Shown here: piece by piece, positions 5,258 to 35,012 of the stretch
How the letters are laid out: the number at the start of each line of letters is the position of its first letter
Position numbering within the stretch: position 1 is the stretch's first letter
Assembly (NCBI RefSeq): GCF_024124375.1
Contig: NZ_JAMXRZ010000024.1
Span: 1-42,279, forward strand
Direction of reading: 5' to 3'
DNA length: 42,279 nt
From: Klenkia sp. PcliD-1-E
GTDB taxonomy: Bacteria; Actinomycetota; Actinomycetes; Mycobacteriales; Geodermatophilaceae
The notes under the pieces: generated by a model
Database searches by the model: none
Told to the model about the DNA's origin: nothing
The model's input: the letters and a program-made list of their open reading frames with translations, nothing else
Translations under genes and position numbers: made by a program

Positions 5258-6139
5258 TCAGCCCCCCAGTTCGGCGGCCCAGCGCTGCGCCGCGGCGCGC
5301 AGCCCGGCCGGGTCGGGCCCGGCGGCCAGCACGTCCCTCGACACCGTGGGGACGACGGCCCGGCCGGCGCCGAACAGCCGCCGCAGTTCCGCCGGCGTCC
5401 CGCCCTGGGCACCGAGCCCGGGGGCCAGCACCGGCCCGCGCAGGCCGGCCAGGTCGACGTCCAGCTCGGTCAGCGTCGCGCCCACGACGACCCCGACGGA
5501 CCCGGTGTGCGGCCCCCACCTGCCCTGCAGGTCGGCGAAGGCCGCCGGGTCCGGTGCCGGGTCGCCGACCAGCCAGTCGGGGGCGTTCCAGGCACCGACC
5601 TGGTCGACCACGGCCTGCGCGACGGTGCGGCCGTCGTCGAGGCGGGCGTGCTGGAAGGTGGCCGCGTCGGGGTTGGAGGTGCGGGCCAGCACGAACAGCC
5701 CGCCGCCGTGCGCCCGAGCGGTGCGCACTGCCGGCTCCAGTGACCCGGCACCCAGGTAGGGGCTCACGGTGAGCGCGTCGACCTGCATCGGGTGCCCGGG
5801 CGCCAGCACGTCGGCGTAGCCGGCCATGGTGGACCCGATGTCGCCGCGCTTGGCGTCCAGCAGCACCAGGGCGCCGGCGTCCCGTGCGGTGGCGACGGCG
5901 TCCTCGAGCACCAGCAGGCCGCGGGACCCGTGCCGCTCGTAGAACGCCGACTGCGGCTTGAGGACGGCGACGGTGCCGGCCAGCGCCCCGACCACGGCGT
6001 CGGTGAACCGGCGCAGGCCGTCGACGTCGTCGGTCAGCCCCCAGGCGGCCAGCAGCTCGCGGTGCGGGTCGATGCCCACGCACAGCGGTCCGCGGCCGGC
6101 GACGGCGGCGGCCAGCCGCGCGCCGAAGGGCTCGCTCAC
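5258..6139 (-). CDS. pyrF: Orotidine 5'-phosphate decarboxylase
   Basis: Converts OMP to UMP, the last step of de novo pyrimidine synthesis. The 293-residue product belongs to the longer PyrF group common in actinobacteria. LCVGIDPHRELL lies near residues 19-30, LKPQSAFYE near 60-70, and the catalytic LLDAKRGDIGSTMAGYA near 95-111. PTVSRDVL is close to the C-terminus. The start is the GTG at 6139, overlapping the pyrD stop by 4 bases (GTGA). A longer open frame upstream belongs to an out-of-frame shadow of pyrD. It is the last gene of the pyr operon. Confidence 0.96.
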   Translation of the reverse strand: MSEPFGARLAAAVAGRGPLCVGIDPHRELLAAWGLTDDVDGLRRFTDAVVGALAGTVAVLKPQSAFYERHGSRGLLVLEDAVATARDAGALVLLDAKRGDIGSTMAGYADVLAPGHPMQVDALTVSPYLGAGSLEPAVRTARAHGGGLFVLARTSNPDAATFQHARLDDGRTVAQAVVDQVGAWNAPDWLVGDPAPDPAAFADLQGRWGPHTGSVGVVVGATLTELDVDLAGLRGPVLAPGLGAQGGTPAELRRLFGAGRAVVPTVSRDVLAAGPDPAGLRAAAQRWAAELGG

Positions 6140-30019: not shown

Positions 30020-30892
30020 GTGCAGCACCGCACCATCGGCAACGACACCGTCGGCCGGGTGACCGTCTCGGCCATCGGCCTGGGCGCCATGCCCCTGTCC
30101 GTGGGCGACCGGCCCTCGCCCGAGGACGCCGAGCGGACCGTGCACGCCGCGCTGGACGCCGGCGTGACCCTCATCGACACCGCCGACGCCTACTGCCTCG
30201 ACGAGTCCGAGGTCGGCCACAACGAGCGCACGGTCGCCGCGGCGATCCGCTCCTGGGGCGGGTCGGACGACGTCCTGGTGGCCACGAAGGGCGGGCACAC
30301 CCGCGAGGGCAGCGAATGGGCCCTGGACGGCAGCCCCGAGTACCTGCGCCGGGCCTGCGAGGCCTCGCTGCGGGCGCTGGGCACCGACGCAATCGGCCTC
30401 TACCAGTTCCACCGGCCCGACCCGGAGACCCCCTGGGAGGAGTCGATGGGCGGGATGAAGGAGCTGCACGACGCCGGCAAGGTGCGGATGGTCGGCATCT
30501 CCAACGCCGACGTCGGCCAGATCGACGCCGCCCGGGCGATCCTGGGCGACGCCCTGGTGAGCGTGCAGAACCAGTTCTCCCCCGGCTTCCGGTCCTCGGC
30601 CGACGAGCTCGCGCACTGCGCGGCCACCGGTCTGGCCTGGCTGCCGTGGAGCCCGTTCGGCGGGATGGGCGGGGCGGGCTCGCTGGCCTCGACGGCGGCG
30701 GAGTTCGCCGCGGTGGCCGGCGAGCTGGGCGTGTCGGTCTACAAGGTGACGCTGGCCTGGCACCTCGCCCAGGCCGACGTCGTCATCCCGATCCCGGGCG
30801 CCAGCAAGCCGCGCTCCATCCAGGACAGCGCGGCAGCCACCCACGTCCAGCTGAGCCCCGAGCAACTCGCGAGGCTCAACACCGCCACCTGA
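30020..30892 (+). CDS. Aldo/keto reductase
   Basis: NADPH-dependent carbonyl reductase family; the substrate is unknown. The 290-residue protein has the catalytic set Asp/Tyr in [14 protein letters not shown] (about 51-64), Lys in [14 protein letters not shown] and His in [12 protein letters not shown]. The C-terminal [19 protein letters not shown] is the NADPH phosphate-binding region. The start is GTG at 30020 with GAGGAGAGG about 8 bases upstream. It is divergent from rarA across 66 bases. Directly after its stop come a C-run tract and the first 73-nt palindrome. Confidence 0.93.
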
Positions 30893-30916
30893 CCCCTGCC
30901 CCACCCCACCCCACCC
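30893..30916. other. Minus-strand G-quadruplex-type tract after the aldo/keto reductase
   Basis: Five C-runs (30893-30896, 30899-30902, 30904-30907, 30909-30912, 30914-30916) are separated by 1-2 bases. On the minus strand this reads as G3-T-G4-T-G4-T-G4-CA-G4, a textbook G-quadruplex motif with 1-2 base loops. It begins immediately after the stop codon and ends 5 bases before palindrome copy 1. Confidence 0.7.
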
Positions 30917-30921
30917 ATGCA

Positions 30922-30994
30922 GTTGATCATCGCCATCGGCAGGTGGGACGCGCTGATTCCCGGCCTGTCCCACCTGCACCTGGCGATGATCAAC
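30922..30994. repeat. 73-nt dispersed palindromic element, copy 1
   Basis: Outer arms 30922-30935 and 30981-30994 are a perfect 14-bp inverted repeat starting GTTGATCATCG. Inner arms 30940-30949 and 30967-30976 are a perfect 10-bp repeat (CAGGTGGGAC/GTCCCACCTG). They are separated from the outer arms by 4-base internal loops and enclose a 17-base apex. It lies between the aldo/keto reductase and the nuclease-like gene, in intergenic DNA. It has the same length and ends as copies 2 and 3. Confidence 0.9.
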
Positions 30995-31115
30995 GCGGGG
31001 TGGACGGCTAGCAGACCTGCGCGCGAGCCGCTGGCGGGCGTCCACACCCGCTGGCCCTGTCCACAGATGGGGCGGACGGCGGCCGTGCGCCCGCTCCTGG
31101 CGGCACGGTCGAGGG
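30995..31115. other. Upstream region of the nuclease-like gene
   Basis: 121 bases between palindrome copy 1 and the next gene. It holds CTGTCCACAG at 31057-31066, one base away from the actinobacterial DnaA-box form TTGTCCACA. It also has a partial inverted relation between GTGGACGG (30999) and CGTCCACAC (31039). No clear -10 is seen. Confidence 0.4.
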
Positions 31116-31991
31116 GTGCAGCCACCCCACGTCGTCACCGCCGCGCAGGCCACCGCCCTCGGCGCCGGCCGCGGTCGGCGGCAGGGCGCCGACTGGCTGC
31201 ACCTGGCACACGACCGTTGGGTCCAGCTGCCCGACGCGGTCGACGCCCGCGAACGCCTCGCGCTGCTGGCCCAGGGCCTGCCGCCCGACGCCGCCTACAG
31301 CCACCTCGCCGCCGCACACCTGCTCGGGGCGCACGTCGACCTGCCGGCCCGACCGACGATCGCGCTCACCCCGCGCCGGGTGCTACCGCAGCGCGCCGAG
31401 GTCGTCACCCGCACCCGCTCGCTCGCCGCCGACGACGTGGTGGTCGTCGACGGCCTGCGCGTGACCAGCGGCGCCCAGACCTTCCTCGACTGCGCCGCGG
31501 CGATGTCGGCCGACGAGCTGTGCGCGGTGGGCGATGCACTGCTCCGGGCCGGCACCCTGGACCCCGCGGAACTGGCGGCACGGCTGACCCGCGCGGGCCG
31601 CACGCGAGGCGTCGTCCGGGCCCGTGCGGTCGCCCCCCACCTGGACGGCCGGGCGATGTCGCGCCCAGAGAGCCAGGTGCGGTGGTGGCTCATCGACAGC
31701 GACCTGCCCCCGGTCGAGCTGCAGGTGCCGGTCCGCGACGCGAGGGGCGAGGTGGTCGCCCACGGCGACCTCGGCTGGGAGGCGTGGAAGGTGCTGGGCG
31801 AGTACGAGGGCCGCCACCATGCCGAGGCCGACCAGTTCGACAGCGACATCGACCGCTACTCGCTGATGGCCGCCGACGGCTGGCTGGTGCTGCGCTTCGC
31901 CAACCGCCACCGCAACCGGCGAACGGTGGTCGACCGCTGCCGCCGCGCCCTGGTCAGCCGCGGCTGGCAGCCCCCGCCCCGCCCCCGTTGA
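31116..31991 (+). CDS. AbiEi-like N-domain plus Vsr/DUF559-like nuclease-fold protein
   Basis: 291 residues, specific function unknown. The N-terminal part (about 1-75) is helical and resembles the AbiEi-type helix-turn-helix of many actinobacterial proteins ([25 protein letters not shown]). The C-terminal part (about 185-285) fits the Vsr/DUF559 restriction-endonuclease-like fold. It has a Glu in PESQVRWWL, an Asp in [20 protein letters not shown], then [20 protein letters not shown]. The start is GTG at 31116; the GAGG upstream is too close to be a good ribosome site. It is flanked by palindrome copies 1 and 2, and its stop codon lies inside copy 2. It could be a repair, defence or element-mobilising nuclease. 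Confidence 0.8.
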
Positions 31992-32059
31992 TCACCGCCA
32001 TCCGCGGGTGGGACGCGCCGGGGTGCGGCGTGTCCGGCCTGCAGCGGACGATGATCAAC
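31987..32059. repeat. 73-nt dispersed palindromic element, copy 2
   Basis: Begins GTTGATCACCG and ends CGATGATCAAC. The outer arms pair for 8 bp and then with mismatches. An inner stem pairs GGACGCGCC with GGCGTGTCC (one G-U in RNA). The TGA stop of the nuclease-like gene (31989-31991) is part of the GTTGATCA end. The element fills the gap between two convergent genes (stops at 31991 and 32085). A run of three C-blocks (31971-31986) lies directly to its left. Confidence 0.88.
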
Positions 32060-32084
32060 TGCGGGAGGCGCACGGACGAAGGGC

Positions 32085-33170
32085 TCAGGCGAGGACGTCG
32101 TCCAGCGCGGCCAGCACCAGGGCGACGGTGTCGGGGCGGGCGTTGTGGCCCATCATCCCGATCCGCCACACGGTCGCGGCGAACTCGCCCACCCCGCCGC
32201 CGATCTCGATGGAGTACTCCTCCAGCAACCGCTTGCGCACGCCCGCGGAGTCCACGCCGTCGGGCACCCAGACCGTGGTCAGCTCGGGCAGCCGGTGGCC
32301 CTCAGCGGCGAACAAGCGCATGCCGCGCTCGACCAGACCGGCCTGCAGCGCCCCGCCGGCGGCGGCGTGCCGGGCGTGCACGGCGGGCAGGCCCTCCTCC
32401 AGCACCCGGCCCAGGCCCGCGTGCAGCGAGACGACCATGCCGGTGGGCGCGGTGTGGTGGTAGGTCCGCCCGCCCGAGCCCGCGGCCTCGCCGGCGTACC
32501 CGCCGAGCATGCCGAGGTCGAGGTACCAGGACTGCGGCTTGGTGATCCGCCGCTCCCAGGCCCGGTCGGAGATCGTGAACGGCGCCAGGCCGGGGGCGAC
32601 GCCGAGGCACTTCTGCGAGCCGGAGTAGGCGATGTCCACGCCCCACGCGTCCAGCTCGACCGGGATCCCGCCGAGGGAGGTCACGCAGTCGGCGATGAGC
32701 AGCGCGTCGCCCTTGCCGGCGCCGAGCGCCGCCATGTCGGACTCCACGCCGGTGGAGGTCTCGGCGTGCACGGCGGCGATGACCTTGGGCGAGGGGTGCG
32801 CGGCGAGCACGCGCTCGGCGTCGACCGGCTGGCCCCACTCGTGCTCGACGGCGACCACCTCGGCGCCGGTGCGCGAGGCGACGTCGACCATCCGCTGGCC
32901 GAACAGCCCGTTGACGGCGACCACGGCGACGTCGCCGGGCCCCACGGTGTTGACGAAGGCGGCCTCCATGCCAGCCGACCCGGTGGCCGACAGCGGCAGG
33001 GTGCGCCGGTTCACGGTGCCGAACACGGTGCGCAGCCGGTCCGAGGTCTCGTCGAGCACCTGGAGGAACAGCGGGTCGAGGTGGCCCAGCAGCGGCTGCC
33101 CGAGGGCGACGGTGGCCTCCGGGTAGGGGTTGCAGGGACCGGGACCGAGCAGGGTGCGGGCGCGCAGCAT
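32085..33170 (-). CDS. Class V aminotransferase (alanine/serine-glyoxylate aminotransferase-like)
   Basis: PLP enzyme transferring amino groups, with glyoxylate as the likely acceptor. The 361-residue protein opens MLRARTLLGPGPCNPYPEA, characteristic of this family. It has ATGSAGMEAA, VIAAVHAETSTGVESD, DCVTSLGG (PLP-binding Asp region) and GSQKCLGVAPGLAPFTIS with the PLP Lys. The start is ATG at 33170. A GTG three codons earlier (33179) is possible, and neither has a clear ribosome site. A longer open frame to 33245 runs through palindrome copy 3 and is unlikely to be translated. The gene is bracketed by palindrome copies 2 and 3. Confidence 0.9.
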   Translation of the reverse strand: MLRARTLLGPGPCNPYPEATVALGQPLLGHLDPLFLQVLDETSDRLRTVFGTVNRRTLPLSATGSAGMEAAFVNTVGPGDVAVVAVNGLFGQRMVDVASRTGAEVVAVEHEWGQPVDAERVLAAHPSPKVIAAVHAETSTGVESDMAALGAGKGDALLIADCVTSLGGIPVELDAWGVDIAYSGSQKCLGVAPGLAPFTISDRAWERRITKPQSWYLDLGMLGGYAGEAAGSGGRTYHHTAPTGMVVSLHAGLGRVLEEGLPAVHARHAAAGGALQAGLVERGMRLFAAEGHRLPELTTVWVPDGVDSAGVRKRLLEEYSIEIGGGVGEFAATVWRIGMMGHNARPDTVALVLAALDDVLA

Positions 33171-33183
33171 GTGCCGCACGTTA

Positions 33184-33206
33184 CCCAGCACCCCAGCACC
33201 CCAGCC
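33184..33206. repeat. Short C-rich tandem repeat upstream of the aminotransferase
   Basis: A 9-base unit, CCCCAGCAC, is repeated about two and a half times, giving C-runs of 3, 4, 4 and 2. On the minus strand these are G-runs that might form a weak quadruplex. It lies between the aminotransferase start and palindrome copy 3, 4 bases from the element. Confidence 0.6.
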
Positions 33207-33209
33207 ACT

Positions 33210-33282
33210 GTTGATCATCGTCATCCGCAGGCCGGGCACGCCCACGGGGGCGTGTCCTCAGCTGCGGATGACGATGATCAAC
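33210..33282. repeat. 73-nt dispersed palindromic element, copy 3
   Basis: The most symmetric copy. Arms 33210-33230 and 33262-33282 are a perfect 21-bp inverted repeat beginning GTTGATCATCGTCATCCGC. An inner stem pairs GGGCACGCCC with GGGCGTGTCC (one mismatch, G-U in one strand). It lies between the aspS 3' end and the aminotransferase 5' end. Its last base (33282) is the third base of the aspS stop codon on the minus strand. Confidence 0.92.
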
Positions 33283-35012
33283 TACGGGTGAGTCTCCGGC
33301 GTCGCGTCGATGCCGGCTTCCTTGCGCTGGGCGGCGCTGATCGGGGTGGGGGCGCCGGTGAGCGGGTCGTAGCCGGCCCCGGTCTTGGGGAAGGCGATGA
33401 CCTCGCGGATGGACTCCACCCCGGCCAGCAGCGCGACCAGGCGGTCCCAGCCCAGCGCGGCGCCGGCGTGCGGCGGCGGGCCGTAGGCGAAGGCCTCCAG
33501 GAAGAAGCCGAACCGGTCCCGGGCCTCCTCGGTGGACATGCCGAGGGTCTCGAACACCCGCTCCTGCAGCGCCGCGTCGTGGATGCGGACCGAGCCGGAC
33601 ATGCACTCGTTGCCGTTGATCACCAGGTCGTAGGCGTCGGACAGCGCCGCGCCCTTGTCCTCGGCGAACCGCTCCCGCCACTCGGGGGTCGGCGAGGTGA
33701 AGGGGTGGTGCATGAAGGTCCACCCGCCGTCCTCGGTCTCCTCGAACATCGGGAAGTCCACGACGAACAGGAACGCCCACGAGCCCTCGGGGACCAGCTC
33801 CAGCCGCTTGGCGATCTCGTTGCGCGCCGCGCCGAGCAGCTCCTGGGCCGGCCGGCGGGGGCCGGCGGCGAAGAAGATGCAGTCGCCCGGCTGCGCGCCG
33901 ACGGCGGCGACCAGGCCCGCGCGCTCGGTGTCGGAGATGTTCTTGGTGACCGGGCCGCCGAGCGTGCCGTCCTCGGCGACGGTGACGTAGGCCAGTCCCT
34001 TGTGGCCGCGGGAGCGGGCCCAGTCCTGCCAGGCGTCGAAGGTGCGCCGGGGCTGCGAGCCGCCGCCGGGCATCACGACAGCGCCGACGTAGGCCGCCTG
34101 GAACACCCGGAACGGGGTCTCGGCGAAGAAGTCGGTCAGCTCGGTCAGCTCGACCCCGAAGCGGGTGTCGGGCTTGTCGGAGCCGAACCGGTCCATCGCC
34201 TCGCGGTAGGTCATCCGCGGGATCTCGCCCACCTCGTGGTCGGCCAGCTCGCGCCAGAGCGCGGTGACCACGGCCGAGGCGACGTCGAGCACGTCGTCCC
34301 GGTCGACGAAGCTCATCTCGAAGTCCAGCTGGGTGAACTCCGGCTGCCGGTCGGCGCGGAAGTCCTCGTCCCGGAAGCAGCGGGCGATCTGGTAGTACCG
34401 CTCCAGCCCGCCGATCATCAGGAGCTGCTTGAACAGCTGCGGGGACTGCGGCAGGGCGTACCAGGAGCCGGGCTGCAGCCGGACCGGGACGACGAAGTCG
34501 CGGGCGCCCTCGGGGGTGGAGCGGGTCAGCGACGGGGTCTCGACCTCGGTGAAGCCGAGGCCCGCCATGACGCCGCGGGCGACCCGGTTGACCTCGCTGC
34601 GCAGCTTCATCACCGAGGCCGGGCCCTGACGGCGCAGGTCGAGGTAGCGGTGGGCGTAGCGGACGTCGTCCCCGGCGGCCTGCGCGGTCTCGATCGGGAA
34701 GGGCAGCGGGGCCGACGCCGAGAGCACCTGCAGCGTCGAGGCGACGACCTCGATCTCGCCCGAGGGCAGCTCGGGGTTCTCGTTGCCCTCGGGCCGGCGC
34801 TGCACCTCACCGGTGACGAGCACGCAGAACTCGTTGCGCAGCGCGTGCGCCTCCTCCTCGCGGACGACGACCTGGGCGTAGCCCGAGCCGTCGCGGACGT
34901 CGAGGAAGACCACCCCGCCGTGGTCGCGACGGCGGGCGATCCAGCCGGCGAGGGTGACGGTGGTTCCGGCGTCGGACGCCCGGAGGGTGCCGGCGTCGTG
35001 GGTGCGCAACAA
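33282..35012 (-). CDS. aspS: Aspartyl-tRNA synthetase
   Basis: Charges tRNA-Asp, and in many actinobacteria also tRNA-Asn before GatCAB amidation. The 576-residue protein has the N-terminal OB anticodon domain ([23 protein letters not shown]) and the class II core with YDLVING-like insertions. It also has [24 protein letters not shown] (motif 2) and [13 protein letters not shown] (motif 3). The start is TTG at 35012, followed by a second TTG codon. A GAGAGG ribosome site 7 bases upstream supports it. The TAG stop touches palindrome copy 3. The second aldo/keto reductase lies 17 bases upstream. Confidence 0.96.

Follow-up and report, generated by a model that had tools for sequence, protein, structure and literature searches.

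A predicted AbiEi-Vsr nuclease gene bordered by palindromes of its own type, and scattered solo copies of these palindromes, in Klenkia and other Actinomycetes

Results

The window analysed in this study is a stretch of 42,279 nucleotides from Klenkia sp. PcliD-1-E (contig NZ_JAMXRZ010000024.1). It contains three palindromes of 73 nt, to which no strand was assigned, at positions 30922..30994 (copy 1), 31987..32059 (copy 2) and 33210..33282 (copy 3). The first-pass annotation had stated that no neighbouring coding sequence explains them. This statement had to be given up, as a gene on the plus strand (31116..31991, GTG start, TGA stop, 291 aa) with a predicted nuclease product sits exactly between copies 1 and 2. 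Palindrome, gene and palindrome form a unit of 1138 bp (30922..32059, plus strand), which has an aldo/keto reductase gene on one side and a class-V aminotransferase gene on the other. Copy 1, the 5′ border of the unit, lies 29 nt past the stop codon of the aldo/keto reductase gene and 121 nt upstream of the start of the nuclease gene. The TGA stop codon of the nuclease gene is located inside the GTTGA of copy 2, the 3′ border. Copy 3 stands alone, as a solo flanked by the aminotransferase gene and aspS, and it ends on the very base that closes the aspS stop codon (TAG, 33284-33282, minus strand). Elsewhere in the window, ARAGORN reported a tRNA-Pro(cgg) of 94 nt on the minus strand (5354-5447), which is long for a tRNA-Pro.

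The length of exactly 73 nt was confirmed from the sequence for each copy, as were the shared ends: all copies start with GTTGATCA[T/C]CG[C/T]CATC and finish with CGATGATCAAC. The palindromes are imperfect, being self-complementary at 28, 25 and 26 of 36 positions in copies 1, 2 and 3, respectively. Single-strand folds of all three copies on both strands have energies between -45 and -61 kcal/mol, with z-scores between -5 and -13 (200 shuffles). The left-end motif was found 15 times in the window when up to 3 mismatches were allowed, compared to an expectation of 0.55, and six of the 15 hits are the ends of the three copies. Three imperfect palindromes of exactly 73 nt with common ends are far beyond chance. 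The genome search with paired ends that had been proposed in the first pass yielded nine occurrences in the 4.5-Mb genome and none for the reversed pattern used as control. A covariance model built from these nine copies identified 23 distinct places at E ≤ 1 in the same genome, a lower bound, since scoring covered 150 of 17718 first-look candidates. Random palindromes are ruled out by the motif excess, by the genome-wide paired-end count with its zero control, and by the self-complementarity.

Rfam gave no match above the gathering score and only two sub-threshold matches to microRNA precursors; on this ground a structured RNA was rejected. A match to an already catalogued repeat family, which had been named in advance as the outcome that would speak against a new family, was found neither above threshold in Rfam nor by a search for actinobacterial terms in the text of PMC3733652. 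Integron attC sites were set aside, as GTTGATC does not seem to fit the R-box consensus.

The N-terminal part of the 291-aa protein (about residues 1-177) was assigned to an AbiEi-like region and the C-terminal part (about residues 182-284) to a Vsr/EDxHD-type nuclease domain (DUF559-like). Residues E185, D218 and E229 of the latter are conserved, and H235 is conserved in the closest 14 relatives. Searches against Pfam, NCBIfam, PADLOC, PDB sequences and protein folds led to the same two parts, an AbiEi-like region and a Vsr/DUF559-type nuclease, and none of them gave a match to a Y1 transposase. The window protein is thus predicted to combine an AbiEi-like region with a nuclease fold bearing conserved acidic residues. 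No AbiEii partner was matched among the ten window proteins scanned, and the sole AbiEii match elsewhere in the genome is located on a different contig (C11). In one pattern-based scan (best segment), the named relatives closest to the window gene were those of Klenkia taihuensis (91%), K. soli (84%) and K. terrae (81%). A profile of the protein family built from 59 proteins matched 129 of 148 class genomes (E ≤ 1e-8), with up to 17 matches per genome; these counts are lower bounds, as 16 first-look candidates were scored per genome. Plasmid or phage cargo was rejected as an explanation: the plasmid collection contained three Arthrobacter records with less than 37% identity, and no phage record was found. 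One family gene of the type with 63-nt palindromes (G000:C188:25899-26752; L077, L091) is split over two frames and has retained both palindromes; it is likely a decayed copy. A record titled Bacillus sp. AZ43 (UNVERIFIED_ORG; L172) bears a gene and palindromes of the Geodermatophilaceae type, and the genome is probably misnamed.

The flanks of the family genes were compared in three sets. The Klenkia set was derived from 76 homologue rows of nine genus genomes, of which 69 were used (the other seven being three second pieces of the same gene and four weak matches) and 66 scored, three genes being dropped before the flank count for ill-defined frames. Of 49 named loci, 11 were left out as duplicates of Klenkia genes and three of the remaining 38 were dropped. 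Among 29 class loci (L184-L212, the best matches of their genomes), four were excluded because their flanks were short or the frame was poor. The test compared the left 300 nt with the right 220 nt of each gene, and shifted controls (63 for Klenkia, 33 for the named loci, 24 for the class loci) reached maxima of 20.0, 17.2 and 14.4, respectively. In 102 of the 126 scored genes, from Klenkia and other families of the class, the same palindrome type was present on both sides with a score above the largest shifted control of the set (Klenkia 54/66, named loci 27/35, class loci 21/25). A common threshold of 20 was exceeded by 97 of 126 genes across the sets. Because relatives and orthologues are present among them, genes were also counted by protein cluster: half or more of the members exceeded 20 in 42 of 51 clusters at 60% identity and in 21 of 26 clusters at 45% identity. 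Laxer scoring with longer flanks placed 49 of the 66 Klenkia genes above a control maximum of 44.

A second control consisted of 106 genes from outside the protein family, all drawn from aspS regions, which were taken from 40 of 56 genomes that had an aspS match. Four of the 106 genes exceeded 20, compared to 16 of the 17 genes of the protein family in these regions, and the two highest of the four are aminotransferase genes that are themselves flanked by elements. The regions downstream of aspS in the 40 genomes of the bacterial family contained elements of other fixed lengths (63, 72 and 73 nt) and with other stems, which were recurrently paired beside a gene of the protein family. These comparisons showed that bracketing by cognate palindromes is the rule of the predicted AbiEi-Vsr family.

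The stems of the palindromes differ between types, with TCGTCATCCGCAGGTGGGACACGCC in the window type, GGCGGGTGGCTG in the 63-nt type and ATGGGGTTGTTGCC, CTTGCAGAACGGCAACGG or CTTGGAGTTGTTCGG in others. In pairs of genes from different loci (97 genes), palindrome similarity above 18 was observed for 60% of the pairs with 60-97% protein identity (n = 50), for 12% of those with 45-60% (n = 417), and for 0-1% of those below 45% (n = 3821). Across different loci, protein and palindrome similarity were correlated with r = 0.387, a value reached in none of 2000 permutations, which ignore the tree. When palindrome labels were placed on a protein tree of 45 genes, 12 changes were required compared to 28.8 for shuffled labels, and none of 200 shuffles was as low; the labels are crude motif labels, at least one of which (L122) is wrong by eye. 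Two of the eight label groups (GTGGCTG and GTGCACG) were clustered no better than shuffles. At the level of sequence, these results show that the palindrome type co-varies with protein relatedness at unrelated loci, and that gene and palindromes are associated.

Solo copies were counted by lineage, and since model and profile searches score part of the first-look candidates, these copy counts are lower bounds. By reading of the sequences, 14 of the 23 covariance places in the Klenkia genome are of the window type at ≥60 bits, and the window lineage has about 12 solos in this genome. Among seven further lineages in the same genome, one had 23 places besides its gene, three had 2-3, and three had none (E ≤ 0.001). 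Matches of the window type at ≥70 bits were obtained in 4 of 57 genomes of the bacterial family, and the same four, out of nine genus genomes, have a window-type gene (≥80% identity). In genus g63, which belongs to another family of the class, exact-ended copies of the CTTGGAG type numbered 91, 68, 53, 53, 23, 12 and 2 in seven genomes; a sister genus, represented by one genome, had none, and reversed controls were zero. A genome of another family of the same order (G029) has 38 copies with the same GTTGATCAT ends (e.g., G029:C1:9205-9266), those listed being 62 nt long, with a one-sided GACACGCC box close to the apex. In the same family as Klenkia, the incomplete assembly of genome G012 (2.9 Mb, 79% complete) contains 11 copies with exact ends, 71-73 nt long, whose stems are richer in AT (GTTGATCATCGGAA...; e.g., L019:950-1020).

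The position of the copies relative to genes was determined with GC-frame gene calls, which are approximate. Of 53 copies in genome G201, 40 were examined, and 21 of these were found at convergent, 16 at tandem and 1 at divergent junctions, with 2 inside predicted ORFs. Other junctions of the same loci were convergent in 6, tandem in 21 and divergent in 12 cases (Fisher p = 0.0008 for convergent). Among 58 distances to adjoining stop codons in G201, 35 were 12-46 nt, seven were -4 and 12 exceeded 100 nt; at a distance of -4 the stop codon is the element's own TGA. In the Klenkia genome, 9 of 16 loci were convergent, 5 tandem and 1 divergent, and 1 was inside an ORF. The palindromes were thus shown, within the limits of the gene calls, to prefer gene 3′ ends.

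Ten solo loci were compared with 2-7 other genus genomes each over stretches of about 0.9 kb. At several of them (L001, L002, L004, L014), some species have the element where others have a gap, and at L004 two species have a 73-nt element and a third has a 63-nt element of another type. Five of 11 sites of the Klenkia genome that were searched are also filled in G002, so that some copies may be old, and losses may have occurred. Neither insertion ends nor a target duplication were readable at the solo loci, the empty sites being too diverged. A counterpart of copy 3 was absent, by sequence reading, from the junctions of G001, G002, G003, G004, G006 and G007, and in G005 the interval from the aminotransferase gene to aspS is occupied by a solo of that genome's own type. 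At the junction of the unit, a single palindrome of another type without a nuclease gene is present in L024 (K. brasiliensis) and L026 (K. marina). Across orthologues of the aminotransferase/aldo-keto reductase junction (window 30893-32084; L024-L063), differing gene-plus-palindrome types or a lone palindrome were observed depending on the species; given these varying occupants, the junction behaves like a long-lived site for the family. Palindromes of 13 nt were noticed at sites that are filled in relatives (L225/L009 in G002, L217/L001 in G003, L231/L013 in G001); two are GTYGATSATCRAC and one has a mismatch. The strict 13-nt pattern GTYGATSATCRAC occurs 1-7 times per genus genome, with a reversed control of 0. 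These short palindromes are possible scars of excision or internal deletion.

In the nine Klenkia copies, double (compensatory) changes were found at no more than 3 of the 25 base pairs predicted inside the palindrome. For G201, 38 distinct copies of 72 nt were compared, and pairing clearly beyond what the composition of the columns accounts for was observed at 5 of the nine variable stem positions (14-22). The apex of the G201 palindromes (L253-L292) is unpaired and has a conserved, oriented core with fixed mismatches, which gives each G201 copy a direction despite its palindromic ends. With optimised orientation, this apex reached 105.2 bits, compared to at most 96.1 bits in 15 null sets optimised likewise. 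The apex signal of 24 Klenkia copies was weak (110.3 versus ≤109.2 bits), and the nulls were biased here, as they consisted of unoptimised random orientations. Within 15 nt outside the ends of 40 G201 and 16 Klenkia copies, the tetranucleotide GTAG was found in 0 and CGTC in 10 of 112 cases. Inside the arms, CGTC is present in 14 of 16 Klenkia copies and GTAG in 16 of 40 G201 copies, and a tag may therefore lie inside the arm.

Discussion

The explanation that we hold to be probable, with considerable room for doubt, is a two-part selfish system resembling REPtrons, consisting of an AbiEi-Vsr nuclease gene, two border palindromes recognised by its product, and solos spread in trans. The AbiEi-like part would bind the cognate palindrome, either as duplex or as extruded hairpin, which is likely because AbiEi proteins are reported to bind inverted repeats (PMC7319586). 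The nuclease would nick or cut the bound palindrome, and replication or repair would then copy it to new sites downstream of stop codons; we infer that this copying is driven by the nuclease. Should the two borders recombine, the gene would be lost and one solo would remain. Like RAYT genes, the nuclease gene seems for the most part to keep its locus, while protein and palindromes diverge together.

Three other explanations start from the same observations. The solos could be the targets of a homing-type nuclease that cuts a solo allele, upon which repair, with a unit-bearing copy as template, inserts the gene and leaves a palindrome on each side. The solos at the junction of the unit in K. 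brasiliensis and K. marina are of types other than that of the window unit, the ten solo loci compared (about 0.9 kb, 2-7 genomes each) show palindromes or gaps and no gene-bearing alleles, and homing by itself makes no new palindrome loci, so that we consider this explanation unlikely. Somewhat more improbable still are hairpins with a function for the host, such as bidirectional terminators or stabilisers of mRNA 3′ ends, with the nuclease gene merely lying between two of them. The strong folds agree with this idea, as does the tendency of the copies to lie at gene 3′ ends and between convergent genes. A plain terminator role predicts neither that the palindrome type tracks the nuclease protein at unrelated loci, nor a near-fixed length of 72 or 73 nt, nor species-specific presence. 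In addition, a scan limited to short loops found no T-tract terminator in 30800-33400, and matched palindrome pairs are rare at ordinary genes (4/106).

The palindromes could also be operators of an AbiEi-like repressor in an autoregulation of the AbiE type, with the solos forming its regulon. The binding to inverted repeats in their promoter reported for AbiEi antitoxins (PMC7319586) and the position of one border upstream of the gene start are in line with this. The second border lies at the stop codon, the solos are found mostly at gene 3′ ends with 1 of 40 at a divergent junction, and no AbiEii was matched among the ten window proteins, the genome's only match being on contig C11; all this speaks against autoregulation, to which we assign the lowest probability of the explanations considered. 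Parts of the homing, terminator and operator readings may also be true.

Extended beyond Klenkia, the selfish two-part system would represent an Actinomycetes-wide class of units, each composed of one AbiEi-Vsr gene and a private palindrome that is copied to gene 3′ ends without a transposase. Many such lineages would coexist in a genome, and their nucleases would account for a substantial part of those intergenic palindromes in actinobacteria that lack an explanation; the class would be convergent with RAYT/REPIN while using an unrelated enzyme. We regard the chances of this broader proposal as evenly balanced. If true, it would explain where many palindromes scattered through the genomes of actinobacteria come from, assign a role to a common protein family that is mainly known under the name DUF559/AbiEi-like, and add a second case, evolved independently, in which a resident enzyme keeps a palindrome population. 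The private protein-palindrome pairs would amount to a natural code for DNA recognition of the AbiEi type and to possible site-specific nickases. What spreads such palindromes would become a directly testable question, requiring one protein and one 73-nt DNA.

To our knowledge, neither the AbiEi-Vsr protein nor the palindrome DNA belongs to any known mobile system. Among the matches listed for open-licence papers in PubMed Central, there was no description of a nuclease-palindrome system, and an earlier description could be missed in this way; judged by title and the start of the abstract, none of the DUF559 papers listed there deals with palindromes. The text of the survey of GTAG/CGTC REPs (PMC3733652) contains none of the six actinobacterial terms searched.

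Several known systems share single features with the one described here. EDxHD/Vsr-type homing endonucleases (I-Bth0305I, 3r3p) have a similar nuclease fold with conserved acidic residues, whereas here the gene lies between palindromes in intergenic DNA and the nuclease is fused to an AbiEi-like region. The type IV toxin-antitoxin system AbiE (AbiEi, 6y8q; Rv2827c, 1zel) includes a protein with the AbiEi-like fold, but the window protein has an additional nuclease domain, and no AbiEii (DUF1814) was seen beside its gene. MITEs and other non-autonomous palindromic repeats are likewise short, scattered and of near-fixed length with conserved ends; unlike for these, the protein linked to the window-type palindromes is a predicted nuclease, and no DDE transposase or parental IS came to light in searches directed at other targets. 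The empty sites were too diverged for a target duplication to be read. The first-pass suggestion of a dispersed family was supported in that the palindromes behave like REPs with respect to the many copies, their species-specific presence or absence and their location at gene 3′ ends, but they are not REPs in the strict sense, as the associated protein is not a HUH/Y1 transposase.

The architecture is that of REPtrons, described in PMC8266576 as coding sequences that have palindromes at their borders and REP repeats evolving along with them. As in the RAYT/TnpA-REP and REP/REPIN systems (PMC8266576 and PMC8049555), a gene is bordered by palindromes, solos are scattered, and enzyme and palindrome co-evolve. 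The enzyme is a HUH/Y1 transposase in REPtrons and an AbiEi-like protein with a Vsr-type nuclease here. REPtron palindromes measure 20-40 bp, according to PMC3733652, compared to strict-ended elements of 60-73 nt, and they have a GTAG/CGTC tag beside the hairpin, whereas no GTAG was found outside the ends of the elements described here. The AbiEi-Vsr system also differs in having several lineages per genome. With the same architecture and a different enzyme, it behaves as REPtrons do without being one of them; it may be new in kind, sharing the architecture alone with REPtrons, and a stricter reader may regard it as a variant of the REPtron type.
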